In this document: positions 4,502-64,000 of the stretch, piece after piece | Layout: every line of letters starts with the position of its first letter | Numbering within the stretch: position 1 is the first letter of the stretch | Source of the DNA: Streptomyces chrestomyceticus JCM 4735 | GTDB taxonomy: Bacteria; Actinomycetota; Actinomycetes; Streptomycetales; Streptomycetaceae | Length of the DNA stretch: 64,000 bases | Assembly: GCF_003865135.1 (NCBI RefSeq) | Contig: NZ_BHZC01000001.1 | Span: forward strand, 744,001 to 808,000 | Reading direction: 5' to 3' | Program-made: the position numbers and the translations under genes | The notes under the pieces: model-generated | Databases searched by the model: none | Told to the model about the DNA's origin: nothing | Seen by the model: the letters and a program-made list of their open reading frames with translations, nothing else

Positions 4502-4515
4502 GAGAAGACAACCGC

Positions 4516-39492: not shown

Positions 39493-39684
39493 GACTCGCC
39501 CTTCCTGCGTCGACGACGATGTGAGGGAGCGGGTTCCCAGATCCACACCACTCATTCCTCACAGATCAAAAACAGTCGGCGCAGGTCGGGCCATCAATGG
39601 CGCAATACAGACCAACAGAGGGGGGTAAATGGGGAAATTGGCGACAAAAGGTGCGCCTCGACCCGGGGTGGTGTGGGGTACGTC

Positions 39685-40116: not shown

Positions 40117-40203
40117 GCCCCGCCGGGTGCCCGGTTCGGGATATCCCATTCGGCGCGCCGGACATCGGCGGCCGCGACGGTGGACGCGCGTTCCCCTGAC
40201 CGG

Positions 40204-40473: not shown

Positions 40474-41303
40474 TCACCGCAGGACGCGGCGGGCGAACGA
40501 GCGCATGGCGAGCCGGCCGAATCCCACCGCGCCCACCAGGAGGGCCGTCAGGAAGGCCCAGGCGGGCATGGAGTCGATCTGCGGCGTGAGGACGGCGCGC
40601 AGGCCCTCGTTCATGTAGACCATCGGGTTGAGGAGTACGGCGTACTGGAGCCAGGGTGTGCTCTCCAGCGCCGTCCAGGGGAAGTACACGCAGCCGAGCA
40701 TCATCGCGGGGAACATCACCAGGGTGAACAGGACCTGGATCTGGCGCGGGTCGATGCGGGTGGCCAGATACATGCCGATCGACGCGGCCAGTACCGCGCC
40801 GGCCAGCAGGACGAGGACCAGCAGCGGCCAGTCGGCGACCTCCACGGCGGGCGCGTGGCCCTGGGCGTGCACCAGCAGGACGACGGGGAAGACCAGCAGG
40901 CCGGCGACCAGGCCCTCGACCACGGCGGAGAGGATCTTCTGCAGGCCGAGCACCCGGACGGACACCGGGGCGAGCGCCCGGTCCTCGATGGCGCCGGGCC
41001 CGGACAACTCCATGACCAGGGGGAACGTCACGGCCGCCATCGCCTGCAGGACCATGGAGGAGCCCACCAGCCCCGGCACCATGACCGTCGAGAACGCCGC
41101 TCCCCCGGGCCCGGCGCCGCCGGCCCCGACCTTCGGCAGCACGTACGCGAAGACGAAGACGAACAGCAGCGGCTGGACGACGATACGGACGGCGCTCATC
41201 ACGAAGTTGCGCCGCAGCACTCTGGCGTCGCGCGCCATCATGGCCGCGAAGGTGTGCAGCGCGCGGCTTCCGGCGGCCGGTGCCCGGGTGGGCACGGTGG
41301 TGG

Positions 41304-41307
<4 letters not shown>
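40474..41307 (-). CDS. ABC-2 type transporter permease (DrrB-like)
   Basis: The 277-residue membrane protein has about six hydrophobic segments, for example VVQPLLFVFVFAYVLP, VVEGLVAGLLVFPVVLLV, LVLVLLAGAVLAASIGMYLA and FLTALLVGAVGFG. It has the ABC-2 signature region ILNP-like LLNPMVYMNEGLRAVL. It pairs with the ATPase encoded just upstream, with start and stop overlapping (ATGA), to export the product, most likely the NRPS peptide of the same operon. Confidence 0.9.
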
Positions 41308-42260
<953 letters not shown>

Positions 42261-42313
42261 CGGGGCACCTTCCTGTTGTCGCCGCCCCGTCGCCGAGGCC
42301 GTTGTCGCGAGGG

Positions 42314-45300
42314 TCATGTGCGGTCGCCCGCCTTCCGACGGCGGGCGCCGTCCGCCGGTGCGGCGTCAGGGAAGTCCGTCAGTGCCGGAGCGTCCGACAG
42401 CTCCGGCAGCTCCGTCCGGAGCCGGCCGATCCTGGCCGCGGGTTCCGCCGCGACCTGCCGCAGTACGGCGGTCAACTGGGCCGCGAACGCCTCGGCGGTC
42501 CGGCGCTCGTACAGGTCGGCGCTGTACCAGACGACGCCTTCCACGCCGGCCGGGCCGCTCCCGGGAGTCCGCACCTCCCGCAGGGTGACGGCCAGTTCGC
42601 TGCGGGCCGCACCCCGGTTGCGGTGGGCGGGGTGCAACGGCCGAGCCGTCAGTCCCGGCAGGTCCCAGGGCGGGTCGGGCAGGTTCTCCATGCCGGTGAT
42701 CATCTGGAACGGGCGCCGCCCCAGGCGTTCCTCGACGAGCTGGGACGGCAGGTCCTGGTGGGCGTAGGCGGCGAGGTCGGCCGCGCGGACCCGGCGCACG
42801 AGTTCGGCGAACGTCGGGTCGCCGCCCGCGTCCGCGCGGAGCACCAGGTGGTCGGCGAACAGGCCCACGACGTCGCTCGTCGCGTGGTCGGCCCGGCCCG
42901 CGGAGACGGTGCCCATCGGTACGTTCACCGCGCCCCGCCGCGCCCACAGGGCGGCGATGGCCGCCCGCAGCACCATGAACAGGGTCGCCCGTTCGCGCCG
43001 GGCGGTCTCCAGCAGGGCCCGGTGCGCGGCCTCGTCGATCGCGAAGGGGACGCTGCCGCCCAGGCCGGTGGGTTCGGCCGGCGGTGTCCGGTCCGGGCGG
43101 AGCAGGGGCGCTTCCGGCAGGTCGGCGAGTACGCCGGTCCAGTACGCGAGGCGCTGTCCGAACGGGCTGTCCGGCTCGTCCAGCCGTGCCGCCTGCTCGT
43201 TCAGGTGTACGGCGAAGTCGGCGTGCTGGACGGGCAGCGGCGCCCACCGGGGCGCGCCGCCGGCCGCCCGCGCGGTGTACGCGGTGGACAGGTCGCGGGC
43301 GATCAGCCCGGTCGACCAGCCGTCCGCGGCGATGTGGTGCACCACGATCTGGAGCACGTGGTCGTCGGGCGCGAGGGCGAAGAGGTCCGCCCTGCCCGGT
43401 GGTCCGGCGGCCAGGTCGAAGGGCCGGGCGCGGGCCGCGTCCAGCGCCCCGGGCAGGTCGTCCTCGGTAACGGGGACGGCGGTCAGCGGTGTCCGGCCGG
43501 GTGCGGTGACCTGCTGCCCGCCGGTCTCCGGGTAGCGGGTGCGCAGGGCTTCGTGCCGGGCCGTCACGTCGTGCCAGGCCGCTTCTAGCGCGTCGGTGCG
43601 CAGCGGACCGCCGAGGCGGACCGTCAGCGGGATGTTGTACCGGCTCTCGGCGGAGAGCATGGACCGCTGGCCGGGGGTCAGCGGTATGACGTCGGGGCGC
43701 GGCCCGGCGGCGAGTCCGTGCCGGTCGCCGGTGTCCGCCAGCCGGGCGGCCAGGGCGGCCGGGGACGGTGCCTCGAAGAGCATCCGCACTTCGAGGTCCT
43801 TGCCGAGGACGGCCTGGACGCGGCCGGCCAGGCGGGTCGCCAGCAGCGAGTCGCCGCCGAGGTCGAAGAACCCGTCTTCGGCGCCGGCCCGTGGCACGCC
43901 CAGGACTTCGGCGAACAGGGCGCACAGGATTTCTTCGACGGGCGAGCCGGGACCGCGTCCGCTGTAGCCGGACGGGTGGTCGGGGGCGGGCAGGGCGGCC
44001 CGGTCGACCTTGCCGTTGACGGTCAGCGGCAGCGCGTCCAGGACGACCGTCGCCGACGGCACCATGTAGTCCGGCAGCCGCTCGGCCACGAAGTCCCGCG
44101 TCCCGGAGGCGTCCCCGACGACGTACGCGATCAGCCGCTTGTCCCCGGGCCGGTCCTCGCGCACGATCACCGCCGCCTGCCGCACCCCCGGGCACTGCCC
44201 GAGGGCCGCTTCGACCTCGGCCGGCTCGATCCGGAAGCCCCGCACCTTCACCTGGTCGTCGGCCCGGCCGAGGAAGATCAGGTTCCCGTCGTGGTCCCAG
44301 CGCACCAGGTCACCGGTCCGGTACATCCGCCCGCCGCCGTACGGGCAGGCCACGAACCGCTCGGCGGTCGGCACCGCCCGGCCGAGGTATCCCCGCGCGA
44401 CGCCCTCCCCGGCGATGTACAGCTCCCCGGTGACCTCGGGCGGCACCGGCCGCAGCGCCGCGTCCAGCACGTACACCCGTACCGCGGCGCGCGGCCCGCC
44501 GATCGGCAGGACGGCCGGGGCGGGCGCGCCGGGCCCGACGGCGAAGGCCGTGGCGCACAGGGTGGTCTCGGTCGGCCCGTACAGATGGCTGACGGTGACG
44601 TCGGGGCAGGCGTCCCGGACACCGGCGACGGCTTCGGCCGGTACCGCGTCGCCGCCCGTCAGGACGTGCCGGAGACCGGTGAAGCACTCGGGGGTCTCCT
44701 GCGCGAGGACGCGGAACAGCCCGGCCGTGAGGTGCACGGCCGTCAGCCCGTGGTCGGCGACCAGTCGGGCCAGGGTCTTCGCGGTGAGGTCGGCCCGGGG
44801 CGCGATCACCACCCGGCCGCCGTTGAGGAGCGGCACCCACAGTTCGAGGGTGGCGGCGTCGAAGGTGTGCGGGGCGTGGAAGAGGACGCGGCCCGCGGCG
44901 ATGCCGTCCCAGCAGGTGTCCTGGGCGAGGGCGGCGACGTTGCCGTGGGTGGTGACGACGCCCTTGGGCGTCCCGGTGGATCCGGAGGTGTACATCACGT
45001 ACAGGCCGGAGTCCGGTGTCACCCGGGCCGCGAGCGGAGCGTCGGAGTGGTGGCGCAGCGCTTCCTCGACGTCGGACTCCGTCAGGACGACGGCGGACGC
45101 GGCGTCGTCGAACAGTGTGCGTACCCGCCGGGCCGGCTGTGCGGTGTCCACCGGCACGGCCACCGCCCCCGCCTTGGCGACGCCCAGCAGGGCCACGACC
45201 AGCTCGGGCGAGCGGGCGAGCGTGACGACCACCCGGTCCCCCGGCCGGGCGCCCGACGCGTGCAGGTGCCGGGCGACCTGGTTGGCCCGGGCGTCCAGAC

Positions 45301-46765
45301 GCCCGTACGTCAGGGCCGTCTCCCCGGACACCACCGCGATGTCGTCCCGGTGCTGCCCTACGGTCCGTTCGAAGAGGCCGGTGACGGTCGTCGGCGCGGG
45401 CCCCGGCAGACCGGTGTTCACGCCGTGCAGCAGCCGGTCCCGTTCGCCGTCGACGAGGATGTCGAGGTCACCGGCGCGGATGTCCGGGTCGGCGACCAAC
45501 TGGTGCAGGATGCGGAGGCACCGGGCGGCGAGGAGCCGTGCGTTCCGGGCGCTGATCAGCTCCGGGCGGTGGGTCAGGAGGAACAGCAGCTCGGGCCCCG
45601 GGAAGGCGGCCAGGCTGACCGGGTAGTGGCTGACGTTGTGCCCGCGTACGGGGGTGAGCTTCAGCGGAGGCCCGTTCTTCTCCTCCTCCGGTGCGCCGCG
45701 CGGGTAACTCTCGTAGACCAGCAGGCTGTCGAACTCGGCGCCGGGGCCGCCGGCCTTCTGGATCTCGCTGAGCCCCAGGTACTGGTGGGACATCAGCGCG
45801 CCCTGCCGGGTCTGCACCTCGGTGAGCAGGTCGGACACCGGCCGGGAGGCCGTCAGCGGGACGCGTACCGGAACGGTGTTGATGAAGAGCCCGAGCATGG
45901 ACTCGACGCCGCGCAGCTCGGCGGGCCGGGCGGCCACGGTCGCGCCGAACACCACGTCGTCCCGGCCCAGCAGGCGGCCGAGGAGCAGCGCCCAGGCTCC
46001 CTGGACGAAGGTGTTGGGGGTCAGGCCGTGGCGGCGGGCGAGTTCGGTGAGCGCCGCGGTGGTTGGCCGGTCCAGCTTCGTGTGGACCTGGCCGTGCCCG
46101 GCGGTGGACGGCTGGCGGCCGGTCGCCGGCGCCAGCAGCGTCGGCTCGCGGAGCCCGGCGAGGTCGGCCCGCCAGGCAGCGCGGGCCGAGTCCTTGTCCT
46201 GGGCGTTCAGCCAGCCGAGGTAGTCGCGGTAGGGCGTCACGGGCCGCAGGCCGGAGGGGTCGCCGCCCGCCTCGTAGAGGGTCCACAGTTCGTGCTGGAG
46301 GGTCGGCAGCGACCAGCCGTCCATCAGGATGTGGTGATTGGTGAGGACGAGGCGGTGTGCGGCCGGGCCGAGCCGGAGCAGGACGAGCCGGAGCAGCGGC
46401 GGTACGGCCAGGTCGAAGCGCCGGGCGCGTTCCTCGTCCGCGATGCGTTCCGCCTCGGCGCGGGCGTCCTCGGGCGGCCTGCCGGTCAGGTCGACGTTCC
46501 GCCAGGGCACCTGCACGCGGGCCGGGATGACCTGGACGGGGTGTTCGAGGCCCGGCGGCTGGCGGAAACAGGCGCGCAGGGTGGCGTGCCGGGCGACCAG
46601 GGCCTGCCAGGACGCCCGCAACGCGGCCGTGTCGAGGTCGCCTTCGATGTCCAGGACGTCCTGGACGACGTAGGTGTCCTCGGCCTGCCCGTCGTACAGG
46701 GAGTGGAACAGCAGCCCCTCCTGCAGCGGTGTCAGCGGCCACACGTCTTCTATGCGGCGGTCCAC
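42314..46765 (-). CDS. NRPS, module C-A-T plus terminal C domain (last subunit)
   Basis: The 1483-residue subunit starts at GTG 46765 after GGGAGGA, overlapping the previous gene by 16 bases. Domains: C of the D-accepting kind (5-440, HHILMDG near 145), matching the E domain at the end of the upstream subunit; A (455-925); T (935-1000, LGGDSL); and a second C domain (1015-1460, intact HHIAADG near 1145). The A-domain pocket residues read D-A-L-H-L-G-L-L-C (from [34 protein letters not shown]), the 4-hydroxyphenylglycine type. There is no thioesterase or reductase domain, so the last C domain probably releases the chain onto an amine, an alcohol or itself. The ABC exporter follows. Confidence 0.94.
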
Positions 46766-49700
46766 GGCATTCCTCCCTCACCGGGTAGGTCGTTGAAGTC
46801 GTCCTCCAGTGCCTCGAGCTGGCCCAGCGTCAGGTCGACCAGCGGCAGGTCGGAGGGGGTCAGGCCGCCCGCGTCCGGGGCCTCGGAGAGCGCGGCCAGA
46901 CCGGCCAGCAGAGCGGTCCAGCGGTCGGCCAGCCGGACGGCGCCGTCCTCGGTGTGGGCCCCCTCCAGCCACGACACCAGCAGCACCAGTTCGGGGCCGG
47001 TGTCGCCGTCGCGGACCAGGCCGCCGAACTCCAGCGCGTGCAGGGCGGGCAGCTCCGGGTCCGCGTCGGCGCCCATGGAGCGGGGACCGGCCGGCTGCCA
47101 GTCGTCCGCCTCCGGGCCCGCGACGGAGAACCGGCCGAGGTAGTTGAACCCGGCCACCGGCGCCGGCAGCCCGTCCCCGTAGGGCTGGGCGGCCTGTTCC
47201 TTGATCCGTTTGAGCAGCCGGCCGGCGGCCGGGCCGCCCGCGCAGACCTCGTCGAAGTCGGCGGCGCCCGCGTCCAGCCGCACCGGCCGCAGGGTGGTGA
47301 ACCAGCCCACCGTGCGGGACAGGTCCAGGTCGCCGTCGCGGCCGTGCCCCTCGATGTCCAGGTGGACCGGGCCCGGCCGGTCCTCGGTGAGGGCCGCGGT
47401 GAGCGCGGCGAGGAGGACGTCGCCGGTCGTGGCGTGGAAGGCCGCGGGGACGGTGGTCAGCACCGCGGACGCCGTGCGCGCGGGCACGGTGAACGTCCGC
47501 TGCCGCATCTGCCCCTCGGTGCCCCGCACCCGGCCGGCGGCCCGCGGCGGGCCGGCCGCCGCCTGCCGGGCGTAGGTGCGGAACGAGGCGGCGACCGGGG
47601 CCAGGTTCCCGTCGGGGTCCGTCCAGGCCGCGGCGAGATCGGGCAGCAGGATGCGCCAGGACACCGCGTCGAAGACCAGGTGGTGGACGACGACCGCGAG
47701 CCGGCCCGGCCGGCCGCTCCCCCGGTCGAACCAGACGGCCCGCAGGGTGGTGCCGGTCCGCGGGTCGAGGCGGCCGGACGCCGCCCGCGCCTCGGTGTCG
47801 ATCAGCTCCTCCAGCGCCTGTTCCGTCAGCCCCTCGGCGTCCACGCGCCGGACCCGGTCCGGTACGGGTGCCGCGTCACCGACTTCCAGGTACGGCTCGG
47901 CGTCGTCCGGAACGACCAGGCGGGCCCGCAGCATCGCGTGGTGGTCCACCACCTTCTCGACAGCCCGCGTCAGCCGGTCCGGTCCGGCGTCGGCGGGAAC
48001 GCGTACGACGGTCCACTGCGCGAACCTGGCGGCCAGTGTGGCCGGGCCGCCGCGTGCGGTCAGTTCGCGCATGACCGGGGTGAGGGGGACGGTTCCGTGG
48101 CCGTCGTCGTGCCGGCCGTCGTCCTCCGTGACGGGTTCGGCGACGCGGGCCAGGGCCTCGGGGGTCTTCTGCTGGAAGACGTCCGAGGCGCTGATGCGGT
48201 AGCCGGCCTTGGCGGCGCGGGCGACGAGCAGCAGGGAGACGATGCTGTCCCCGCCGAGGGCGAAGAAGCTCGCGTCCGCGGCGACCGGGAGGGCGTGCCC
48301 CTCGGGTTCCGCGTCCGGTGTCCCGAGGCCCAGGAGTTCCGCGAACAGCCGGCAGAAGAGCGTTTCGAGCGGGGTGCGGGGCGCGCGCCCGGCGGACGCC
48401 GCCGTGTAGTCGGGTGCGGGGAGTTCGGCCCGGTCCACCTTTCCGTTGACGGTCAGCGGCAGCGCGTCCAGGACGACCGTCGCCGACGGCACCATGTAGT
48501 CCGGCAGCCGCTCGGCCACGAACTCCCGTACGCGGCCGGCTTCTCCGACGACGTACGCGACCAGCCGCTTGTCCCCGGGCCGGTCCTCCCGTACGACGAC
48601 GGCGGCCTGCTCCACCCCCGGGCACTGCCCGAGCACGGCCTCGACCTCCGCCAACTCGATACGGAAACCCCGCACCTTCACCTGGTCGTCGGCCCGGCCC
48701 AGGAAGACGAGATTCCCGTCCCGGTCCCAGCGCACCAGGTCACCGGTCCGGTACATCCGCCCGCCCCCGTACGGGCACGCCACGAACCGCTCCGCCGTCA
48801 GCGCCGCCCGGCCGAGGTAGCCCCGCGCGACGCCCTCCCCGGCGATGTACAGCTCACCCGATACCCCCACCGGAACCGGCCGCAGGAACCGGTCCAGGGC
48901 GAAGACCGCGAAGCCGTCGCGCGGGCGGCCGATCGGCAGGACGGACGGAACCTGGGCGCCGGGTGCGACGGTGTGGGTGGTGGCGCACAGGGTGGTCTCC
49001 GTCGGCCCGTACAGGTGGTGCACCTCGGCGTGCGGGCAGGCGTCGGCCACCCGGGCGACCGCTTCGGCGGGCACCACGTCGCCGCCGGTGAGCACGTGCC
49101 GCAGCCCCGCGAAGCACTCGGGGGTCTCCTGCGCCAGCGCCCGGAACAGCCCGGCCGTCACGTGCACCGCCGTCACCGCGTGCTCCGCGACGAGCCCGGC
49201 GAGCGTCCCGCCGTCCATGTCCACGGCGGGCGCGACCACGACACAGCCGCCGTTCAGCAGCGGCACCCACAGCTCGAAGACGGACGCGTCGAAGGCGTGC
49301 GGCGCGTGGAACAGCACCCGGCCCGTGCCGATGCCGCCCCAGCACGTGTCCCGCGCGAGGGCCGCCGCGCCCCCGTGGGTCACCAGCACGCCCTTGGGTG
49401 TCCCGGTCGAGCCGGAGGTGTACATCACATACAGGCCGGACCCCGGTGCCACCGACGCGGGAGCCGGGGACGCGGGGAAGCCGTCGAGCGCTTCCCGCGT
49501 CGCGGTCTCGGTCACCACGAGCGCGGGGGCGGAGTCCTCCAGCAGGTGCCGTACCCGCTCGGCCGGGTAGCCGGTGTCGACGGGGACGGCCACGGCTCCC
49601 GCCTTCGCGATGCCGAGGAGGACGGTCACCAGCTCGGCGGTGCGCGGCAGCAGCACCGCCACCCGGTCCCCCGGGCCGACGCCCTGCGCGTGCAGGTGGT

Positions 49701-52700
49701 GCGCGTACTGGTTGGCGCGCGCGTCCAGTTCCCGGTAGGTCAGGGTCAGCGCGCCGGACACGACGGCCGGTGCGTCCGGGCGGCGGGCCGCGACCTCCGC
49801 GAACACGGCGGGCACCGTGCGGTCCGCTGCGCCGGTGCCCGGCTGCCCGATGTTCACCCCCGCGACGAGCCGCTCCCGCTCCCCGGCCAGCAGGATGTCC
49901 AGGTCCCCCACCCGGGCCCGGGCATCGGCCGCGAGCCGGCCGAACACCTCCACCAGCCGGGTGGCCAGGGCCTGAGCGGTGGCCGGGTCGAACAGATCGG
50001 TGGCGAACTCCAGCAGGCCGTCGAGACCGCCGCCGTCGGGACGCTCCCGCAGCACCACCGACAGGTCGAACTTCGAGGAGGCCAGCCCCACCGGGACGGC
50101 CTCCGCGCCGAGCCCGGGAGCCGCGAACGCCGTGTCCGGGGCGTTCTGGAGGGCGAAGGCGACCTGGAAGAGCGGGTGCCTGGCCAGCGAGCGGACCGGG
50201 TTCAGGACGTCTACCAGGTGCTCGAAGGGCAGGTCCTGGTGGGCGTAGGCCGCGAGGTCGGTCTCCCGTACGCGGCCGATCAGTTCGGTGAAGGAGGGGT
50301 TGCCGCTGAGGTCCGTCCGCAGCACCAGCGTGTTCAGGAAGTTGCCCACGAGACCGTCGAGGGACTCGTCGGTACGTCCGGCGACGGGTGTGCCGAGCGG
50401 TACGTCCTCGGCGCCGCCGAGCCGGGACAGCAGGACGGCGACGGCGGCCTGCGCGACCATGAACAGCGTCGCGTCGCACTGCTTGGCGATCTCCAGGAAC
50501 CGCCGGTGCACGGCGGCGTCCACGGTGAACGGGAGCATCGCGCCCCGGTGACTGGCCGTGGCCGGGCGGGGCCGGTCGAAGGGCAGCTCCAGTTGTTCGG
50601 GGAGGTCGGCGAGGGCGCGGGTCCAGAAGTCGAGTTGCTTGCCGAAGAGGCCGTCCTCGGTGTCCCGGTCGAGCAGTTCGCGTTGCCAGAGGGTGAAGTC
50701 GGCGTACTGGACGGGCAGCGGCGACCAGCCGGGCGCGCGGCCCTCGGACCGTGCCGCGTACGCCGTCGACAGGTCCCGCATCAGGACGCCCATGGACCAG
50801 CCGTCGGCGGCGATGTGGTGCACCACGACCAGCAGGACGTGCTCGGCGGGCGCCACCTCGAACAGCGTGACCCGCCACGGCAGGCCCGTGTCCAGCCGGA
50901 ACCCGCGGGCGGCCTCCGCGGCCAGCGCCGTGTCCACCGTCTCCTCGGTGACGGCGGTCACGGGTATGTGTGCCGGTACGGCCGCCAGGACTTCCTGGCG
51001 GGCGCTGCCGCCGTCCTCGGGGTAGCGGGTGCGCAGCGTCTCGTGCCGGGCCACGACATCGGCCCAGGCCGCTTCCAGCGCCGCGACGTCCAGCTCTCCC
51101 GTCAGCCGGACGGCGAGCGGAATGTTGTTGGTGGCGCTCGGTCCTTCGAGGCTGTGCAGGAACCACATCCGCTGCTGACCGAACGACAGCGGCAGCGGGT
51201 CGGGGCGTTCGGCCGGGACCAGCGCCGGGCGTACGGCCTCGAACTCGTCCAGCCGCGCGGCGAGCCCCGCGACGGTGGGCGCCTCGAACAGCGCCCGTAC
51301 GGAAATCTCCGCACCGAGCGCGCCCTTGACCCGGCTCGCCAGCCGCGTCGCCAGCAGCGAGTCCCCGCCGAGATCGAAGAACCCGTCGTCGATGCCGACC
51401 CGGGCCACGTCCAGTCCCAAAATCTCGGCGAACAGCCGGCACAGGATCTGCTCCTGCGGCGTGCGGGGCGCGCGGTCCGAGGCGGCTGCCGCTGCCGCGT
51501 AGTCGGGGGCCGGGAGCGCGGCCCGGTCGACCTTGCCGTTGACGGTGAGCGGCAGCGCGTCCAGGACGACCGTCGCCGACGGCACCATGTAGTCCGGCAG
51601 CCGCTCGGCCGCGAACTCCCGTACGCGGCCGGCTTCTCCGACGACGTACGCGACCAGGCGCTTGTCGCCCGGCTGGTCCTCCCGCGCCAGCACCGCGACC
51701 TGCGCCACACCCGGGCACTGCCCGAGGACGGTCTCGATCTCGGCCGGTTCGACCCGGAAGCCACGGATCTTCACCTGGTCGTCGGCCCGGCCCAGGAAGA
51801 GGAGATGGCCGTCCCGGTCCCAGCGCACCAGGTCACCGGTCCGGTACATCCGTCCCCCGCCGTACGGGCACGCCACGAATCGCTCCGCCGTCAGCGCCGC
51901 ACGGCCGAGATACCCCCGCGCAACCCCGCCACCGGCCACATACAGCTCCCCGGCGACACCCACCGGAACAGGCCGCAGGAAACTGTCCAGAACGAACACC
52001 TGTACGCCGTCCCGAGGTCTGCCGACGGGAAGGGCGGAGGGCACCTTCGCGCCGGGGCCGACGGTGAGGGCGGTCGCGCACAGGGTGGTCTCCGTGGGGC
52101 CGTAGAGGTGCCGTAACGTCACTTCGGGGCAGGCGTCCAGGACGCTCGCCACGGCTTCGGCGGGTACCACGTCACCGCCGGTCAGGACGTGCCGGAGACC
52201 GGCGAAGCACTCGGGCGTCTCCTGGGCCAGCACCCGGAACAGCCCAGCCGTCATGTGAACGGCCGTCAGCTCGTACTCACCGACCAGACGGGCCAGCGTG
52301 CCGCCGTCCAGGTCGACCTCCGGTGCCACCACCACACACCCGCCGTTCAGCAACGGCACCCACAGCTCGAACGTCGAAGCGTCGAAGGCGTACGGAGCGT
52401 GGAAGAGGACACGGCCGGTCGTGCCGATGTCGCCCCAGCAGGAGTCCAGCGCCAGCCCCGCCACACTCCCGTGCGTCGCGACCACGCCCTTGGGCGTCCC
52501 TGTCGATCCGGACGTGTACATCACGTACAGCGCCGACTCCGGCTCCGGCGCCACCTCCACCGGCGGCGGAGCGGCCGCGAAGGCCCCGCGAGCGGCCTCA
52601 CGCACCTCCGCGTCGCCCACCACCAGCACCGGAGCCGCATCCGCCAGCAGCCACCGCACCCGCTCCGCCGGATACGAGAGATCCACCGGCACGAACACGG

Positions 52701-54300
52701 CCCCCGCCTTCGCTACACCCAGCAGGACCACGATCAGCTCCGCCGACCGGGAAAGCGCCACACCCACCCGGTCACCAGGGGCCACCCCCCTGGCGAGCAG
52801 GTACCGGGCGAATCGATTCGCCCGGGTGTCCAGCTCCTCGTAGGTCAGGGTCTCCGCCGCGGACACCACCGCCGTTTCCCGCGCGTACCGCCGGGCGGTC
52901 CGCTCGAAGAGGGCGGGGACGGTCGTCGGCGCGGGCCCCGGGGCGCCGGTGTTCACGCCGTGCAGCAGCCGGTCCCGTTCGCCGTCGACAAGGACATCGA
53001 GGTCGGCGATCCGGGTGGCCGGGCCGGCGGCCAGTTGGCCGAGGACGCGCACCAGGCGGCTTGCGAGGAGCTGGGCGTCGGCCCGGGTGAACAGGTCGGG
53101 GCGGTAGGTCAGCCGGAAGCGTTCGGACATCGCGGTGAACGTCAGCGGGTAGTGCGCGGCGTCCCGGCCGCCGACGCTCGCCAGGTCGAGGTCCCCGGAC
53201 ACCGCCCGTGCGGTGGTCCCGGTCAGGTCGAGGAGGTCGACGGGGTAGTTCTGGAAGACGGTCAGGGTGTCGAACAGGGTGCGGGTCCCGGCGACGCCCT
53301 GGACCTCGGCCAGGCTCAGGTGTTCGTGCGGCAGCAGTTCCGCCTGCGCCTCCTGGAGGCAGGTGAGCAACTGGGCGACGGTGTCGGTGGCCGACCAGCG
53401 GGCCCGGACCGGCAGGGTGTTGATGAACAGGCCGACGGTGGTGTCGATGCCCGGGATCTCCGGCGGGCGCCCGGCCGTGGTCCCGCCGAAGACCACGTCG
53501 TCGCGCCCGGTCAGCGTGCCGAGCAGCACGGCCCACGCGCCGCGCATCACGGTGCTCATGGTCACCCCGGTGCGGCGGGCCAGCGCCGCGAGGTCCGTCA
53601 CCAGCGGGCCGGGCAGTTCGATCCGTACCTCGTCGGGGTCGACCGGCGCGCGGTGGCCCGTCTCCGGCGCGACGAGGGTGGGCCGCGCCCCGCGCAGCGC
53701 CTGCCGCCACGCCTCGGCGGCGGCCGCGCCGTCGCGGCGGGCCAGCCAGGCGAGGTAGCTGCGGTACGGGGTGACCGGCGGGAGGGCGTGTTCGTCGCCG
53801 CCGTTGCGGTACAGCTCGACCAGTTCGTCGGCGATGATCGAGGTCGACCAGCCGTCGCAGAGGATGTGGTGGACGGTCAGCACGACGCGGGTACGGGTGT
53901 CGCCGACGCGGATGGCGGTCAGGCGCAGCAGGGGCGGTGCCGCGAGGTCGAAGCGTCGGGTCCACTCGGCGCGTACCGCCTCGTCCAGGGCGTCCTCGCG
54001 CCGGTCGGCCGGGACGGGGCGCAGGTCCAGTTCCTGCCACGGGAGGTCCGCGCGCTGCGGGACGATCTGCACCGTGTCACCGGACTTCAGGGTGCGGAAC
54101 CCGGCCCTGAGGGTCGGGTGCCGGCGTAACAGCGCGTGTCCCGCCGACCTGAGGGCGTCCGTGTCGAGAGGGCCGTCCAGGTCCAGGACCACCTGGCCCC
54201 GGTAGATGTCCGTGGCCTCGGCGTCGTACAGGGCGTGGAACAACATGCCCTTCTGCATCGGCGCGAGCGGCCATATGTCGGCCAGTCCGGGCTTGCTCAC
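46750..54300 (-). CDS. NRPS, two modules C-A-T-C-A-T-E (middle subunit)
   Basis: The 2516-residue subunit starts at GTG 54300 after GGGGAAAG; ATG 54315 is possible. Domains: C (D-accepting, HHILCDG), A (455-925), T (LGGDSL near 980), C (1035-1470, HHIAADG), A (1495-1955), T of the epimerase-associated kind (LGGDSI near 2015) and E (2070-2510, [28 protein letters not shown]). Both A domains read D-A-F-H-L-G-L-L-C, the hydroxyphenylglycine type. The E domain makes the second residue D, consistent with the C type that opens the next subunit. It lies 2 bases after the stop of the upstream subunit, and its 3' end overlaps the next gene by 16 bases. Confidence 0.94.
51522..51666. repeat. 145-bp tract identical to 59336-59480 in another NRPS module
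   Basis: Read by eye, 51522-51666 and 59336-59480 are identical (offset 7814) at the end of two A domains. The flanks, out to the start of the following C domain (near 51104 and 58921), are nearly identical, with one codon of length difference. Shorter near-identical tracts occur at 43.99-44.09 kb and 48.42-48.54 kb. This indicates recent module duplication or gene conversion. Confidence 0.8.
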
Positions 54301-54302
54301 GG

Positions 54303-57300
54303 CTACTTTCCCCATTCCGTTTCGAGCTGGTCGATGTCGTCCTGCGTCAGGGCGACGAGGTCGAGGTCCGACGGGGTACGCCCGCCCGCGTCCGTCTGCG
54401 CGGCGCACGCCACCAGGTCCTCGGCGGCCCGGAACCACGCGTGGGCGAGGCGCCGCACGGCGGCCTCGGAGACCTGCGCGGGGTCCCAGGCCCAGTGCGC
54501 GGTCAGCCGGGGTCCGTCGTCGGTGTCCACGGTGCGGGCGTCGAGGTCGACCGGGTGGGTGCGTACGCCTTCGGGCGGGTGGGCGTCGCCGGTGGCGGTC
54601 CACGCGGTGGCGGCCGTCCGGCGCTCGTCCGCGGCGGGGACGCGGCCGAGGTAGTTGAACAGGAGGGGCGGGGTGGCGAGTCCGGCCAGGGCCGGGGCCG
54701 TCCGCGCGTTCAGGTGGCGCAGCAGTCCGTGGCCGATGCCGTGCGCGGGCAGTTCCCTGAGCTGCTCCTTGGCGCGTTTGAGTACGGTCCCCGGGTCGGG
54801 GGCGCCGGTGCGGGCGCCGGGTTCCGCGCCGCCCGGGTCGAGCCGGACCGGGTGGACGCTGGTGAACCAGCCGACCGTACGGGACAGGTCGGTGCCGGGC
54901 GCGAGGCCGCTCTCTCGGCCATGCCGTTCGAGGTCCACCAGGACGGCGCCGGGGCGGCCGTGCCAGTCGGCGACCGCGAGCACGAGGGCGGCGAGGAGCA
55001 CTTCGGTGACCTCGGCGTGGAAGGCCGCCGGGACGGTGGTGAGCAGGGCCGCCGACGTGTCGGGGGCCAGGGTCATGCGCAGCGTCCCGGGCCCGCCCGG
55101 CCCGGTGGGCGCGGCCGGCAGCAGCGGGGCGATGGGCGCGCCGACCCGCTGCCAGAGCGGGAGTTCGGCGGTACGGGCCGGGTCGTGGGCGGCCTGCCGC
55201 AGCAGTTCGGCCCAGCGGCGGAAGGACGTACGGACCGGTGGCAGGGCCGGGGTGGTGCCCGCCTGGACCGCCTCGCAGGCGAGCGCCAGGTCGTCGAGGA
55301 GGATGCGCCAGGACGCGCTGTCCACGCACAGGTGGTGGGCGGCGAGGAAGAGCCGGCCCGGCCGGTGCGCGCCCGCGTCGAACCGGACGGCTTGCAGGAC
55401 GGCGCCGGAGCGCGGGTCGAGGCGGCCGGACGCGGCGGCGCACTGCTCACGGACGATCGCCGCCGTGATCTGCTCGGCCGGTCCGGGCACCCGTACGGTA
55501 CGCAGCAGGTCCGCCGCCTGTACGGAGCCCGGCGGCCGGATGTGCAGGGTGCCGGTGTCGTCGGGACCGAGGCGGAGGCGCAGGGCGCCGTGGTGGTCCA
55601 GGACGGCTTGCAGGGCGGTGGTGAGGTCGGCGGCGGTCAGGCCGGTGGGGGTCCAGACCATGACGCTCTGGTGCAGCGGTCCGGCCAGGGCCTGCCGGTC
55701 GGCGAGCTGCCGCATGACCGGGGTGAGGGGTACGGGGCCGTCGCTGTCGTCGTGCCGGGTCTCCTCCTCCGTGACGGGCCGGGCGGCGAGGGCCAGGGCC
55801 TCCGGGGTCTTGTGCTGGAAGACGTCCGTCGCGCTGATCCGGTAGCCGGCCCGCGCGGCGCGGGCGACGAGTTGCAAGGAGATGATGCTGTCGCCGCCGA
55901 GTTCGAAGAAGTTGGCGTCCGCGCCGATGACGGAGGCCGGTGCCGGGGCCTGGGGGACGGCCGGGGGTGTGGGGGCCGCCGGGGGCCTCGGGGCATCGGA
56001 GTTCGGGCCGTTCGGACGGTCCGGGAGGTCCGGGCGCGGTACGAGCGGTTCCGGGACGTCCGGACGCGGCACGTCCGGACGCGGCACGTCCGGACGCGGC
56101 ACGTCCGGGGGCCGGACATCCGGCACCACCAGCCCGAGAACCTCCGCGAACAGACCGCAGAAGAGCGTTTCGAGCGGGGTGCGCGGCGCGCGTCCCCCGG
56201 ACGCCGCCGCGTAGTCGGGTGCGGGCAGCGCGGCCCGGTCGACCTTGCCGTTGTCCGTGACGGGCAGCGCGTCGAGGGTGACGACGGCGCCGGGGAGCAT
56301 GTAGTCCGGCAGCCGCTCGGCCGCGAAGTCCCGTACGCCGTCCGCCTCCCCGACGACGTAGGCGACCAGACGCTTGTCGCCGGGCCGGTCCTCCCGTACG
56401 ACGACGGCGGCCTGGTCCACGCCGGGGCACTGCCCGAGGACCGCTTCGATCTCGGCCGGTTCGATCCGGAAGCCGCGGATCTTCACCTGGTCGTCGGCCC
56501 GGCCCAGGAAGACGAGGTTGCCGTCCCGGTCCCAGCGCACCAGGTCGCCCGTCCGGTACATCCGTCCCCCGCCGTACGGGCACGCCACGAACCGTCCGGC
56601 GGTCAGCGCCGCACGGCCGAGGTACCCCCGGGCGACGCCCTCCCCGGCGACGTACAGCTCGCCTGCCACGTCCGTGGGCACCGGGCGCAGCAGCGGGTCC
56701 AGGACGAAGACGCGTACGCCGTCGCGCGGGCGGCCGATCGGCAGGACGGACGGTGCTTCCGTGCCGGGTGCGAGGGTGTGGGTGGTGGCGCACAGGGTGG
56801 TCTCGGTCGGGCCGTACAGGTGGTGGACGGCGACGCCGGGGCAGGCTTCGGTGACCCGGGCGACGGCTTCGGCGGGGACCACGTCGCCGCCGGTCAGGAC
56901 GTGCTGAAGGCCCTTGAAGCAATCGGGAGTCTCCTGGGCCAGCACCCGGAACAACCCGGCGGTGACATGGACGGCCGTCAGCGCGTGCGCGTCGGCCAGC
57001 CGGGCCACCGTCTCCCCGTCCAGGTCCAGCGGCGGCGCGACGACCACGCACCCGCCGTTGAGCAGCGGCACCCACAACTCCAGGGTGGACGCGTCGAAGG
57101 TGTGCGGGGCGTGGAAGAGCGTCCGGCCGGTGCTGACGCCCTGCCAGCAGGGGTCGAGGGCGAGCGCCGTGACGTTCGCGTGCGTCGCGAGGACGCCTTT
57201 GGGCGTCCCGGTCGAGCCGGAGGTGTACATCACGTAGAGCCCGGAGTCCGGCGCGACCCGCGCGGGCGGCGGGACGGCCGGGAAGTACCGCAGCGCCTCG

Positions 57301-60300
57301 GCCACCTCGGAGCGCGTCATGACCAGTACGGGCTCGGCGTCCTCCAGCAGGAACCGCACCCGTTCGACCGGGTACGCCGTGTCGATGGGCACGGCCGCCG
57401 CGCCTGCCTTGGCGATGCCGAGCAGTACGGCGACCAGCTCCGCCGAGCGGTCGAACAGCACCGCGACCCGGTCGCCGGCGGTGACGCCCTTCGCGTGCAG
57501 GTACTGGGCGCAGCGGTCGGCCCGCGCGTCCAGTTCGCGGTAGGTCAGGGTGCCGTCCGCGGTCTCCACCGCCACCGCGTCGCCGTGCCGGGCGACGACC
57601 TGGGCGAAGCGCTGCGGCACGGTCGTGTCCCGGGTGTCCGCCCGGCGCGGTGCCACCGCCTCCGTGACGCGGGTCCGTTCGTCCGCACCGAGCACGTCCA
57701 CCGCCCCGGCCCGTACGGCGGGGTCCGCGGTGACCTGGTCGAGCACCCGCAGCAGCCGGGCGACCAGCCGCTCCGCCGTGGCGGGGTCGAAGAGGTCGGT
57801 GGCGAACTCCAGGTAGCAGTCCAGGCCGGCGGCGGCACCGTCAGGGTCCCGGCGTTCCCACATCAGGACCGACAGGTCGAACTTCGAGGTGGACATTTCC
57901 ACCGGCACCGGACGGGACTCCAGCCCCGGGGCGTCGAAGTGCGTCTCGGGTGCGTTCTGGAGGGCGAAGGCGACCTGGAAGAGCGGGTGCCTGGCCAGCG
58001 AGCGGACCGGGTTCAGCACTTCCACCAGGTGCTCGAACGGCAGATCCTGGTGGGCGTACGCGGCGAGGTCGGTCTCCCGTACGCGGCCGACCAGTTCGGT
58101 GAAGGAGGGGTCGCCGCTGACGTCCGTCCGCAGCACCAGCGTGTTCAGGAAGTTGCCGACCAGGTGGTCCACGGCCTCGTCGGTACGGCCCGCGACGGGC
58201 GTGCCGAGCGGAATGTCCTCCCCGGCGCCGAGCCGGGACAGCAGCACGGCGACGGCGGCCTGCGCGACCATGAACAGCGTCGCGTCGCACTCGCGCGCGA
58301 TCTCCGCCAGGCGCCGGTGCGCCGTGGCGTCCACCGTGAAGGGCAGGAACGCTCCCCGGTGGGTCGCCACCGGCGGGCGGGGCCGGTCGAACGGCAGCTT
58401 CAGGTGCTCCGGCAGGTCCGCCAGGGTCTCGGACCAGAAGGCGGCCTGCCTGCCGAACAGGCCGTCCGGGGTGTCCTGGGTGAGCAGGTCGCGCTGCCAG
58501 ACGGTGAAGTCGGCGTACTGGACGGGCAGTGGCGTCCAGCCGGGCGCGCGGTCCTCGGACCGTGCGGCGTAGGCGGTCGCCAGGTCGTCGGCCAGGACGC
58601 CCATGGACCAGCCGTCGGCGGCGATGTGGTGCACCACGATCAGCAGGACGTGCTCGGCGGGCGTCACCTCGAACAGCGTGACCCGCCACGGCAGTTCCCG
58701 CTCGATCCGGAAGCCCTGCGCGACACCGTCGGCCAGCGCCTGTTCCACGTCGTCCGCACCGATCCGGACGACGGCCAGATGTACGGGCGCCTCGGCGGCG
58801 TCCACGATGTCCTGGCGGGCGCTGTCACCGTGCTCGGGGTAGCGGGTACGCAGCGTCTCGTGCCGGGCCACGACATCGGCCCAGGCGGCTTCCAGCGCCG
58901 TGACGTCCAGCTCTCCCGTCAGCCGGACGGCGAGCGGAATGTTGTTGGTGGCGCTCGGCCCTTCGAGGCTGTGCAGGAACCACATCCGCTGCTGACCGAA
59001 CGACAGCGGCAGCGGATCGGGCCGGTCCACCGGTACGAGCACGGGCCGTACGGCCTCGAACTCGTCCAGCCGCCCGGCCAGCCCTGCGACGGTGGGCACC
59101 TCGAACAATGCCCGCACCGGAATTTCCGCACCCAGCGCGCCCTTGACCCGGCTCGCCAGCCGCGTCGCCAGCAGCGAGTCCCCGCCAAGATCGAAGAAGC
59201 CGTCATCGATACCGACCCGGGCCACGTCCAGCCCCAGCACCTCCGCGAACAGCCGGCACAGGATCTGCTCCTGCGGCGTGCGGGGCGCGCGGGCGGACGA
59301 CTCGGGCGCTGCGTAGTCGGGGGCGGGCAGCAGCGCCCGGTCGACCTTGCCGTTGACGGTGAGCGGCAGCGCGTCCAGGACGACCGTCGCCGACGGCACC
59401 ATGTAGTCCGGCAGCCGCTCGGCCGCGAACTCCCGTACGCGGCCGGCTTCTCCGACGACGTACGCGACCAGGCGCTTGTCACCGGGCCGGTCCTCACGGA
59501 CGACGACGGCGGCCTGGCCCACCCCCGGGCACTGCCCGAGAACGGCTTCCACCTCGGCCGGTTCGACACGGAAGCCGCGGATCTTCACCTGGTCGTCGGC
59601 CCGCCCGAGGAAGACGAGGTTGCCGTCCCGGTCCCAGCGCACCAGGTCGCCCGTCCGGTACATCCGTCCGCCCCCGTACGGACACGCCACAAACCGTTCG
59701 GCAGTCAGCGCCGCGCGTCCGAGGTACCCCCGGGCGACCCCGCCACCGGCCACATACAGCTCTCCCGCGACCCCTACCGGAACAGGCCGCAGGAAGCCGT
59801 CCAGAACGAACACCCGCTGGCCGTCCCGGGGCGCGCCGATCGGCAGTACCGACGGCACCTCCGCTCCCGGGTCGATGACGTACGCGGTGGCGCACAGGGT
59901 GGTCTCGGTCGGCCCGTACAGGTGGTGCAGCGTGGCGTCGGGGCACGCCTCGGCGACCCGGGCGAGGGCTTCGGCGGGCACCACATCGCCGCCGGTCAGC
60001 ACGTGCCGGAGACCGGAGAAGCACTCGGGCGTCTCCTGCGCCAGCACCCGGAACAGCCCAGCCGTCACGTGGACGGCCGTCAGCTCGTACTCACCGACCA
60101 GACGGGCCAGGGTGACGCCGTCCAGATCCACCTCCGGTGCCACCACCACACACCCGCCGTTCAGCAACGGCACCCACACCTCAAGAGTCGAGGCGTCGAA
60201 GGCGTGCGGCGCGTGGAACAGGACCCGGCCCGAGCCGATGTCGCCCCAGCAGGAGTCCAGGGCCAGCCCCGCGACGCCCCCGTGCGTAGCCACGACGCCC

Positions 60301-63300
60301 TTCGGCTCACCCGTGGAACCGGACGTGTACATCACGTACAGCGCCGACTCCGGCGTCACCTCCACCGGCAACGAAGCAGCCGGGAATCCCCCGGCGGCGG
60401 CTTCGCGCAGCTCCTCCTCGCCCACCACCAGCACCGGAGCGGAGTCCGCCAGCAGGAACCGCACCCGCTCCGCCGGATAGGACGTGTCCACGGGTACGAA
60501 GACGGCCCCCGCCTTCGCGATGCCCAGGAAGGCGACGACGAGTTCCGCCGACCGGGGCAGCGTGACGGCCACCCGGTCGCCGGGGCCCACGCCCTTGGAG
60601 CGCAGGTACCAGGCGAACCGGTTGGCCCGCGCGTCCAGTTGGCCGTACGTCAGCGAGGTGGCGCCCGCCGTCACGGCGGTGTCGGCGCGCGACCGCAGTA
60701 CGGTGGCGTCGAACTGGCCGAGGACCGTACGGCCGCCGGGGCCCGCCGCTCCGACGTTGACGCCGGTGACGAGCCGCCGCCGCTCCTCGGGAGCCAGCAG
60801 TTCGACCTCGCCGACCCGCAGCCCGGGGTCGGCGGCGACCTGGTCGAGCACCGCGAGCAGCCGGGTGACCAGGCTCTGCGCGCCGTCCGGGTCGAAGAGG
60901 TCGGTGGCGAACTCCAGGTAGCCGTCGATGCCGGTGCCGCCGGGGCGCTCCCCCAGGCCGAAGACCAGGTCGAACTCGACCGTGGCCGGGGCGACCGGGA
61001 CCGGTGCCGCGGCGAGGCCGGGCAGGTCCCACGCGGGGTGCAGCTCGTCCTCCAGCACCAGCAGCACCTGGAACAGCGGGTGCCGGGCGGTCGAACGGGC
61101 GGGCTTCAGCGCCTCCACGACATGCTCGAACGGGAGGTCCTGGTGGGCGTACGCGGCGAGGTCGGCGTCCCGGGCGCGCGTCACCAGTTCGGTGAAGGAC
61201 GGGTCGCCCCCGGCATCGGTCCGCAGCACCAGGGTGTTGAGGAAGAACCCGACGACGCCGTCCAGGGACTCGTCGGTGCGGTCCGTGACGGGGGTGCCGA
61301 GCGGGATGTCCTCGCCCGCGCCGAGCCGGGACAGCAGCAGGACGACCGCGGCCTGCGCGACGGTGAACAGGGTGGTGTCGCACGCGCGGGCGATGGCGCC
61401 GAGCCGCTGGTGCGTCCGGGCGCCGACGGTGAACGGCAGCGTGGCGCCGCGGTGGCTCGCCGTGGCCGGGCGCGGCCGGTCGGTGGGCAGTTCGAGCTGG
61501 TCCGGCAGGCCGGCCAGGGCTTCGGTCCAGTGGGCGAGCTGGGTGTCGAGCAGGCCGTTGCCGCTGTCGAGGAGCGCGTGCTGCCAGAGGGTGAAGTCGG
61601 CGTACTGGACGGGCAGGGGCGCCCAGTCGGGCGCGCGCCCCGTGCTCCGCGCCGTGTACGCCGTCGACAGGTCGCGGGCCAGGACGCCCATCGACCAGCC
61701 GTCGGCGGCGATGTGGTGCACGACCACCAGGAGCACGTGGGCGGCGTCGTCGGCCAGGTTGAACAGGGTCGCCCGCCGGGGCGGTGCCGTGTCGAGGGCG
61801 AACCGGCGGCCGATGTGCTCGGCCAGTACGGCGTCGAGTGATGCCTCGTCGGCGGGGACGACCGGCAGGTCCGGGGTGCCGGGGGTGCCGCCCGGCGCCG
61901 GCCGGTCACCGTCCAGCACCAGTTGGTGCGGTACGCCGTCCCGCTCGGGGAAGACCGTGCGCAGCGGCTCGTGGCGCGCGATCACGTCCGCCCAGGCGGC
62001 GCGCAGCGCGGGCAGGTCCAGGCTGCCGGTCAGCCGCACGGCCATGGCCATGTTGTAGGCGCCGGTGTCCTCCAGCCGGTTCGCGAACCACATGCGCTGC
62101 TGCCCGAACGACAGCGGCAGGATCTCCGGCCGCCGCGCCGCGACCACGCGCGGGCGGCCGGTGCCCAGGTCGTTCAGCAGCCCGGCCAGTCCCGCGACCG
62201 TGGGCGTCTCGAACAGCACGGTGAGGGGGATCTCGACGCCCAGGGCGGTACGGACCCTGCTGATCAGCCGCATGGCCAGCAGGGAGTCGCCGCCCAGGTC
62301 GAAGAACCGGTCGTCGATGCCGGCCCGGTCCAGGCCCAGGACTTCGGCGAAGAGCCGGCACAGGGTCTGTTCCTGCGGGGTGCGGGGCGGGCGGCCCGAG
62401 GGGGCGGCCGTGTGGCCGGGGGCGGGCAGCGCGGCCCGGTCGACCTTGCCGTTGGGCGTCAGCGGCAAGGCGTCGAGGGGGACGACGGTGCCGGGGAGCA
62501 TGTGGTCGGGCAGGTGCTCGGCGGCGAAGTCCCGTAGGCCGTCCGCTGTTCCGACGACGTACGCGACCAGGCGTTTGTCGCCGGGCCGGTCCTCGCGGAC
62601 GACGACCGCGGCCTGGTCCACGCCCGGTGCCCGGCCGAGGACGGCCTCGACCTCCGCCGGCTCGATCCGGAAGCCCCGGACCTTCACCTGGTCGTCGGCG
62701 CGGCGCAGGAAGACCAGACGGCCGTGGCGGTCCCAGCGGACGAGGTCGCCGGTACGGTACATCCGCCCGCCGCCGTACGGGCAGGCGACGAAACGTTCCG
62801 CGGTGCGCGCGGGGCGGTTCAGGTACCCGGGGGCCACGCCCCGCCCCGCGACGTACAGCTCACCGGCGACGCCGGGCGGCACCGGGCGCAGGGCCCGGTC
62901 CAGGACGAAGACCCGTACGCCGTCGCGCGGTCCGCCGATCGGGAGCACCGCCGGTGCCTCCGCGCCCGGGGGGACGGTGTACGTGGTGGCGCACAGGGTG
63001 ATCTCCGTCGGCCCGTAGAGGTGGTGCAGCGTGGCGTCCGGGCAGGCTTCGGTGACGCGGGCGACGGCTTCGGCGGGGACCACGTCGCCGCCGGTCAGGA
63101 CGTGCCGGAGGCCCTTGAAGCAGTCGGGGGTCTCCTGGGCCAGCACCCGGAACAGCCCGGCGGTGACGTGGACGGCCGTCAGCGCATGGGCGGCGGTCAG
63201 CCGGGCCACGGCGCTCCCGGTCAGCTCCGCCTCCGGTGCCACCACGACACACCCGCCGTTGAGCAGCGGCACCCACAGTTCGAACGTGGCGGCGTCGAAG

Positions 63301-64000
63301 GCGTGCGGGGCGTGGAAGAGGACGCGCCCGGTGCCGATGCCGTCCCAGCACGTGTCCAGGGCGAGCGCCGCGACATTGTCGTGGGTGGCCGTGACGCCCT
63401 TGGGCGTGCCCGTCGATCCGGAGGTGTACATCACGTACAGGCCCGACTCCGGCGGCACCCGAACCGGGAGCGGCGCGGCCGAGAAGTCCCGCAGGAAGGC
63501 TTCCCGCAGCGCCTCCTCGCCGCTCACGACCAGCGTGGGGGCGGAGTCCTCCAGCAGGTACCGCACTCGCTCGGCCGGGTAGGACGGGTCCACCGGTACG
63601 GCCAGCGCTCCGGCCTTGGCGATGCCCAGCAGGGCGACGACCAGTCCGGCGGAGCGGGGCAGCACGACACCGACGCGGTGGCCCGGCGCCACTCCCCCGG
63701 CGTGCAGGTACCGGGCGAACCGGTTCGCCCGTGCGTCGAGCTCCGCGTACGTGAGGGTGTCCGCGCCCGAGACGACCGCGGCCGCGTCCGGGAAGCGGGC
63801 GGCGATCTCCGCGAACCGTGCGGGGACGGTCGTGCCCGGCGCGGCCTCCCGGCCGGTGTTCACCTCGGTGAGCAGCCGGGTCTCCTCGCCGTCCAGCAGG
63901 ACGCCGGTCTCGCTCACCCGCAGCGCCGGGTCCGCGGTGAGCCGGGCGAGGACCGCGGTGAGCCGGGCGGCCAGCAGGGCGGCCGTCTCCCGGTCGAAGA
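54303..64000 (-). CDS. NRPS, at least three modules ...C-A-T-C-A-T-C-A-T-E (partial, 5' end beyond window)
   Basis: The frame is open to the window edge, where the end of a C domain is visible, so the protein exceeds 3230 residues. By position: A1 63.86-62.44 kb, T1 (LGGDSL) near 62.29, C 62.1-60.8, A2 60.76-59.34, T2 near 59.18, C 59.0-57.7, A3 57.65-56.23, T3 (LGGDSI) near 55.89, E 55.74-54.33 ([24 protein letters not shown]). Pocket signatures are DAFHLGLLC (A1) and DALHLGLLC (A2, A3), all hydroxyphenylglycine-like. Both internal C domains have HHIAADG and are of the L-accepting kind, fitting no E in modules 1 and 2. The third residue should be D. T3 carries a repeat-rich insertion. Confidence 0.94.
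56056..56108 (-). repeat. 15-bp tandem repeats encoding PDVPR units inside carrier domain T3
   Basis: ACGTCCGGACGCGGC is repeated exactly at 56056-56070, 56071-56085 and 56086-56100, with a partial fourth copy. On the coding strand this gives consecutive PDVPR pentapeptides. They lie between helix 1 of the third carrier domain (LFAEVLGL) and the phosphopantetheine Ser motif (LGGDSI), inside a Pro-rich insertion of roughly 60 residues. Confidence 0.85.

Follow-up and report, generated by a model that had tools for sequence, protein, structure and literature searches.

A conserved six-module nonribosomal peptide synthetase line of Streptomyces chrestomyceticus with a predicted run of six hydroxyphenylglycines and a terminal condensation domain

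Introduction

Type V glycopeptides, such as complestatin, rimomycin and kistamicin, are assembled by seven or nine nonribosomal peptide synthetase (NRPS) modules, among them modules for Trp and Tyr, and the lipodepsipeptides of the ramoplanin and enduracidin types, which use several 4-hydroxyphenylglycine (Hpg) modules, have a lipid start and cyclisation by a thioesterase (TE) and are not known to have more than two neighbouring Hpg residues. Here, we describe an NRPS line encoded by three contiguous genes, N1, N2 and N3, on a 64,000-nucleotide stretch of the Streptomyces chrestomyceticus JCM 4735 genome (the window; G000:C1:744001-808000 of a single contig of 9,377,418 bases), in which all six modules are of Hpg type. 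With moderate confidence, we read it as a dedicated and conserved line that would make a hexa-Hpg peptide of the configuration L-L-D-L-D-L from Hpg supplied in trans and would release it by its last condensation (C) domain, C7, and not by a TE.

Feglymycin of Streptomyces sp. DSM 11171, the known peptide that comes nearest, is likewise arylglycine-rich and without cross-links. Of its 13 residues, nine are arylglycines; valine occupies positions C and I, which leaves a longest arylglycine run of five (excerpts of PMC12416467). The original prediction, made from the letters of the window alone, had stated that Hpg in feglymycin alternates with other residues; this is broadly right, with the run of five lying between the two valines. 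VanRS-like pairs are found in type V glycopeptide antibiotic and feglymycin clusters, and such clusters were reported in 44 assemblies of 1138 Streptomycetales (PMC8698665, in part). In the glidonin synthetase, a C domain follows the last loaded thiolation (T) domain, and this C domain, of module 13, adds putrescine (PMC10587159, in part).

In the openly licensed literature, we found neither a printed peptide with six consecutive Hpg residues nor a description of the present line. The available part of a paper on S. chrestomyceticus B5 (PMC13141997) names a rimomycin cluster and does not mention feglymycin or hydroxyphenylglycine, and the sections seen of PMC11376024, PMC13372681 and PMC11097637 contain nothing on a six-module line of this kind.

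Results

Organisation of the Line

The three NRPS genes occupy window positions 42314-64000 on the minus strand and extend about 1.3 kb beyond the window edge (N1 at most G000:C1:798303-809393, N2 790750 to about 798315, N3 786314-790765). Their products have the domain order C1-A1-T1-C2-A2-T2-C3-A3-T3-E1 / C4-A4-T4-C5-A5-T5-E2 / C6-A6-T6-C7, that is, 21 domains with six C-A-T modules (A, adenylation) and two epimerisation (E) domains, and Pfam finds 3+2+1 AMP-binding domains in N1, N2 and N3. At both junctions, N1/N2 and N2/N3, the genes overlap or almost touch.

N1 (54303-64000, continuing to about 65285 or 65393 outside the window) opens directly with C1, an LCL-like domain without a loading module in front, of which only about 120 bases lie within the window (63879-64000, the rest reaching to about 65240). 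It carries A1 (62466-63749), A2 (59367-60647) and A3 (56265-57542) and ends with E1 (54378-55733, motif HHLCVDSAS). N2 (46750-54315, starting with ATG at 54315 or GTG at 54300) contains A4 (51553-52842) and A5 (48460-49737) and ends with E2 (46864-48093, motif HHLVFDAVS). N3 (42314-46765) contains A6 (44030-45307), and with C7 (42401-43690, intact motif HHIAADGWS) both the protein and the line come to an end; no Thioesterase domain follows C7 in N3. The original prediction had named neither the C domain at the end nor the missing TE.

In comparison with the described systems, the line has six Hpg-type modules and no TE, whereas feglymycin is made by 13 modules that also take Val, Phe, Asp and 3,5-dihydroxyphenylglycine (Dpg; part of PMC12416467). 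It differs from the type V clusters in module number and in having Hpg-type modules only, without modules for Trp and Tyr. No halogenase was found beside it, and no P450 gene, including Oxy-type genes, was seen among the 17 proteins scanned from window position 36038 to the amylase gene at 823427, a scan that did not take in all short open reading frames (ORFs). With the ramoplanin and enduracidin types it shares the presence of several Hpg modules.

Conservation across Streptomyces

A search with the C7 region (E <= 1e-150) found the line in four of 392 Streptomyces genomes, namely the present one (G000), G036, G048 and G337; the line is real and conserved. All 21 domains are carried by G036 and G337, and C1 and C7 are kept in all four carriers. 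In G048, the six A domains are spread over three contigs. The ratio of nonsynonymous to synonymous substitution rates (dN/dS) is below 0.5 for every one of the 21 domains in the pairs G000-G337 and G000-G036, with values of 0.32 and 0.37 for C7.

Orthologues of N3 were sought among 5.8 billion proteins, a search to which proteins of more than 1.75 times the length of N3 are invisible. Among the best 120 of 2705 matches, seven clusters with 47 member sequences share 75-99% identity over the C7 region, and the closest named protein is from S. chrestomyceticus (99%). All seven clusters are 1461-1483 residues long and, on this basis, end after C7.

These data bear on the idea that the line is a decaying remnant, which has lost a seventh module and a TE and makes no product. 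The missing TE, the many changed positions of the terminal C domain (see below) and a frame difference between A1 and A2 on a draft contig of G048, which may reflect faulty sequence or true damage to the gene, would agree with decay. Against this stand 21 of 21 domains kept in three genomes, purifying selection on each of them and the common end point of the seven listed N3 clusters, and we regard decay as highly improbable.

Specificity of the A Domains

At the A4/A5 motifs, the nine code positions read D-A-(F/L)-H-L-G-L-L-C in six of six A domains, as had been claimed from the sequence. Position 239 is F in A1, A4 and A5 (DAFHLGLLC-K) and L in A2, A3 and A6 (DALHLGLLC-K). The tenth residue is the lysine of the A10 motif (NGKVD) in all six domains, although a narrower pattern missed it in A3. 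Across the four genomes, each of the line's 24 A domains keeps the nine-position code (23 by script, A2 of G048 by eye). A different NRPS cluster some 50 kb away also has six A domains, and none of them shows it; therefore, the HLGLLC code is not a matter of chance. Codes of this type, in the customary numbering of positions, are generally linked to Hpg. One table row of PMC9113097, a source seen in part, gives DIYHLGLLCK as Hpg.

Of 35 A domains, 33 were placed in a tree, the other two having fewer than 400 residues. In it, the line's A domains form the sister group of F_1, F_2, F_3 and F_6, four Hpg-type domains from a complestatin-like cluster that the genome also carries. They are 54-62% identical to these four, 45-48% to F_5 of that cluster and 40-54% to the six A domains of the cluster about 50 kb away (cluster X). 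The latter, at G000:C1:859070-889300 (L004, L005, L006) with an MbtH gene at 858785, has A codes unlike Hpg. It was considered as an upstream part of the line and rejected because of its different codes and the intervening distance.

A1, A3, A5 and A6 group with their positional counterparts in the other species. A2 and A4, in contrast, pair with each other within each of G000, G036 and G337, and synonymous divergence (dS) is raised in A2, A4, T2 and T4 (0.51-1.04 versus 0.16-0.61 in the remaining 17 domains). From both observations together, recurrent gene conversion between modules 2 and 4 of the line (window 59367-60647 and 51553-52842) appears likely.

The C and E Domains and the Two Ends of the Line

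In the C-domain tree, C4 and C6 cluster with DCL or first-position domains, which follow an E domain or open a protein, and C1, C2, C3, C5 and C7 cluster with LCL domains. The clade of the latter five has a support of 0.995, the next wider one only 0.659; of the five reference domains in it, four are copies of the same line from Streptomyces sp. CB02923 and the fifth comes from another Hpg-coded NRPS of that strain. Both N1 and N2 end in an E domain, and C4 and C6 are DCL-like, which is consistent with L-L-D-L-D-L. Thus, six consecutive Hpg-type modules with this stereochemistry are supported as a prediction by the codes, the E positions and the C-domain types; the wording "at least six" in the original prediction would go further, with C domains standing at both ends of the line.

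Outside the line, scaffold3 of CB02923 (L079, ORF from 7012) encodes an NRPS with a code of Hpg type, whose C domain shares 54-62% identity with C2, C3 and C5.

A sister relation of C1 and C7 was also considered. They group together in the tree with a support of 0.964, yet C1 shares 57% identity with C2 and no more than 46% with C7, and their grouping is likely a long-branch effect. A lipo-initiation (starter) role for C1 was set aside because C1 groups with LCL domains, which is weak evidence in a tree without a labelled starter set.

Since C1 and C7 are both LCL-like, the former without a donor and the latter without an acceptor in cis, the line may be only the middle part of a longer system. 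C1 would then receive its donor, an acyl group or an NRPS amino acid, from another carrier protein, and C7 would either return the chain to T1 or deliver it to an A-T module encoded elsewhere, giving a longer, capped or even polymeric peptide. Purifying selection on both domains and their retention in all four carriers fit such a role. On the other side, the C-terminus of N3 lacks an E/COM-type donor end as seen in N1 and N2 (motifs compared by eye), N1 starts straight with C1, and the proteins scanned from the penicillin-binding protein (PBP) gene to the SigF gene, which flank the line, include no additional A or T domain. C7 is also strongly altered relative to C domains that serve ordinary elongation: of 74 positions that hardly vary among other LCL domains, 16-19 are changed in all four genomes. 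We hold this possibility to be somewhat unlikely and prefer the line as complete in itself, with a conserved C domain after the last T domain and no TE, as in NRPSs that release their product by a terminal C domain. Unlike C7, the glidonin C domain is followed by further domains (excerpts of PMC10587159).

Another proposal is that C7 acts like an X-domain and recruits the P450s of the complestatin-like cluster to cross-link hexa-Hpg on T6. Structural comparison favours it, and we retain it as a rival, yet the active-site motif and the sequence identity speak against it. The last NRPS of the complestatin-like cluster (F5), which ends C-A-T-X-TE and served as a positive control for the type V combination of X-domain (HRxxxDD/E) and TE, has the X motif HRIAADD, and the kistamicin X motif is HRxxxDE (PMC6565677, in part), whereas C7 keeps HHIAADGWS and has no TE behind it. 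Moreover, C7 is 46-51% identical to the line's own LCL-type C domains versus 40% to the co-resident X-domain, the first Foldseek match of its structure model (mean pLDDT 77) is the DhbF fragment 5u89, and the 17 proteins in and around the cluster include no P450. An X-like C7 thus seems improbable to us. Equally doubtful is the extended form of the idea, a TE-less satellite line that would borrow Hpg, MbtH and, through an X-like C7, P450s, and yield an oligo-Hpg macrocycle that is cross-linked or closed by C7.

Precursor Supply

The absence of Hpg biosynthesis and MbtH genes from the window, noted in the original prediction, is borne out: none of five genomic MbtH matches and none of 11 Hmo-like (flavin mononucleotide (FMN)-dehydrogenase) matches falls in the line's cluster or the window, and the genome's single HmaS match at E <= 1e-70 lies outside, at 1569275; aminotransferases were not searched as a family. 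The extension beyond 64 kb that the prediction had called for did find such genes, about 0.76 Mb away, in a second cluster at 1.566-1.618 Mb.

At G000:C1:1566463-1576625, this cluster has genes for a prephenate dehydrogenase, an HpgT-like aminotransferase, HmaS-like and Hmo-like proteins and MbtH, together with one P450 gene and one reading frame with halogenase and P450 domains. The prephenate dehydrogenase, HmaS-, Hmo- and HpgT-like genes (1.566-1.572 Mb) are those assigned to Hpg biosynthesis. The cluster additionally has five NRPS genes, an ABC transporter and a 3-deoxy-D-arabino-heptulosonate 7-phosphate (DAHP) synthase. We infer the names HmaS, Hmo, HpgT and "complestatin-like" from Pfam families, gene context, the X motif and the position of isocomplestatin in S. 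rimosus, complestatin sequences lying outside the comparison. In the tables for S. rimosus ATCC 10970 (PMC13098539, PMC9045324, each in part), isocomplestatin is placed at 1568818-1619165, near the place of the co-resident cluster, and the same tables show no NRPS at 786-810 kb.

All four carriers of the line also have the complestatin-like cluster, including its MbtH gene and its HmaS-, Hmo- and HpgT-like genes. Its 15 query proteins all have matches in G337 and in G036 (80-96% identity); on a 36-kb contig of G048, ten of 15 match at 82-96%, F1 and F2 give likely cross-matches at 59-65%, and three have no match. HmaS with at least 57% identity over at least 346 residues was found in 12 of 101 genomes, comprising three of three carriers and nine of 98 non-carriers, at a cut that was set after viewing the list and excludes two shorter matches (58% and 73%); the fourth carrier also has HmaS. 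On these grounds, the complestatin-like cluster probably supplies Hpg in trans, and MbtH probably comes from it likewise.

It should be noted that codes cannot prove a substrate. With two code variants, F or L at position 239, and a halogenase domain in the co-resident cluster, the A domains could take a relative of Hpg (Dpg, phenylglycine or chlorinated Hpg) at some or all positions. The HmaS-, Hmo- and HpgT-like genes of all four carriers would make Hpg itself, and no type III polyketide synthase (PKS)-like Dpg gene was found among 16 proteins around the complestatin-like cluster; consequently, we rate a relative of Hpg as rather unlikely.

Neighbouring Genes and Cluster Borders

The start of the gene for a DrrA-like ABC transporter ATP-binding protein (41304-42317, minus strand; just under the model cut-off) overlaps the stop of N3, and an ABC-2 type permease gene (ABC2_membrane, 40474-41304, minus strand) follows. 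Both stand after N3 in all four carriers. Also beside the line in all four are genes for a SigB/SigF-family sigma factor (38587-39555, minus strand) and a 154-residue protein (39685-40149, minus strand), in which only an FhaA N-terminal domain was found.

Upstream of N1 lie genes for a histidine kinase (HK) and an OmpR-type response regulator (RR), the latter with VanR-O as its top NCBIfam model, far under the cut-off. They adjoin the cluster in all four carriers. In the five non-carriers fetched, the RR, the HK and the 217-residue protein interposed between them are absent within about 16 kb on the PBP side, the side that this comparison covered, the left border of the cluster not being fixed by it. 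The two-component pair is therefore most likely part of the cluster. The 217-residue protein (G000:C1:811453-812106, L002:3453-4106) has no Pfam match. The PBP gene itself (64-77% identity), considered as a self-resistance gene, stays together with its neighbour in five of five non-carriers and was rejected as an ordinary flank.

Elsewhere in the genome, a 2854-residue NRPS frame at G000:C1:9068467 (L157), listed with an FMN-dehydrogenase at 9000737, has an Hpg-like A domain with Gln in place of the His of the line (VQLTAGLF) and may correspond to a cluster that is given as "Teicoplanin (28)" for S. rimosus. The far end of the window encodes a beta-lactamase-family protein (PF00144, 147-1679, minus strand), an SrpI-like type 2 encapsulin shell protein with a cyclic-nucleotide-binding domain (1785-3206, plus strand) and, after it, an ORF with a methyltransferase domain (3652-5385, plus strand).

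Discussion

The line belongs with the known arylglycine-peptide NRPS lines; it is related to the type V clusters by its A domains, whose sister group lies in the complestatin-like cluster, by its two-component pair and by a probably shared Hpg supply, and to the feglymycin cluster by the VanRS-like pair of the latter (PMC8698665, in part). New are the predicted run of six Hpg residues, the probable supply in trans, the start with a C domain that no loading module precedes, the end at C7 and the two-component pair that stands beside the line in its carriers.

The mechanism we propose would proceed as follows. Hpg from the complestatin-like cluster, perhaps with the aid of its MbtH, would charge T1-T6; E1 and E2 would set D-Hpg at positions 3 and 5; and the chains would be handed from the ends of N1 and N2 to the DCL-type C domains of N2 and N3. 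C7 would then release the hexapeptidyl thioester, most likely to a small nucleophile, which may be an amine or the peptide's own N-terminus. The adjoining ABC pair may export the product, and the upstream two-component pair may regulate the line.

Several observations weigh against this picture. C1 at the start of the line implies either an unrecognised donor or an idle domain; at the other end, no amine-supply gene was recognised beside C7. The Hpg assignment derives from the general code link and one table row, with proven Hpg A domains outside the comparison, and one A domain of the complestatin-like cluster reads DAFHLGLLS, so code changes do occur in this clade. The 16 proteins lacking a Dpg gene were the sole place searched for one. 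At the looser cut of E <= 1e-70, HmaS appears in 30 of 101 genomes, including 27 of 98 non-carriers, and because the four carriers are related, the counts of co-occurrence are not independent and serve as support and not as a statistic. G337 has a second HmaS-like gene (47%) and another Hpg-coded NRPS, so that the source of Hpg is not unique there. Finally, the HK scores best with a heavy-metal sensor model and only second with VanS-O, all far under the cut-off.

Arylglycine peptides are prone to racemise in chemical synthesis (PMC5133696, in part), and an enzymatic route to them could thus be of practical use. If our reading is true, no predicted stretch of a single arylglycine that we encountered would be longer, and the line would take its building block from the cluster of a different antibiotic. 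Two questions become testable with it: how a terminal C domain releases an arylglycine peptide, and whether two peptides are fed by one precursor pathway.

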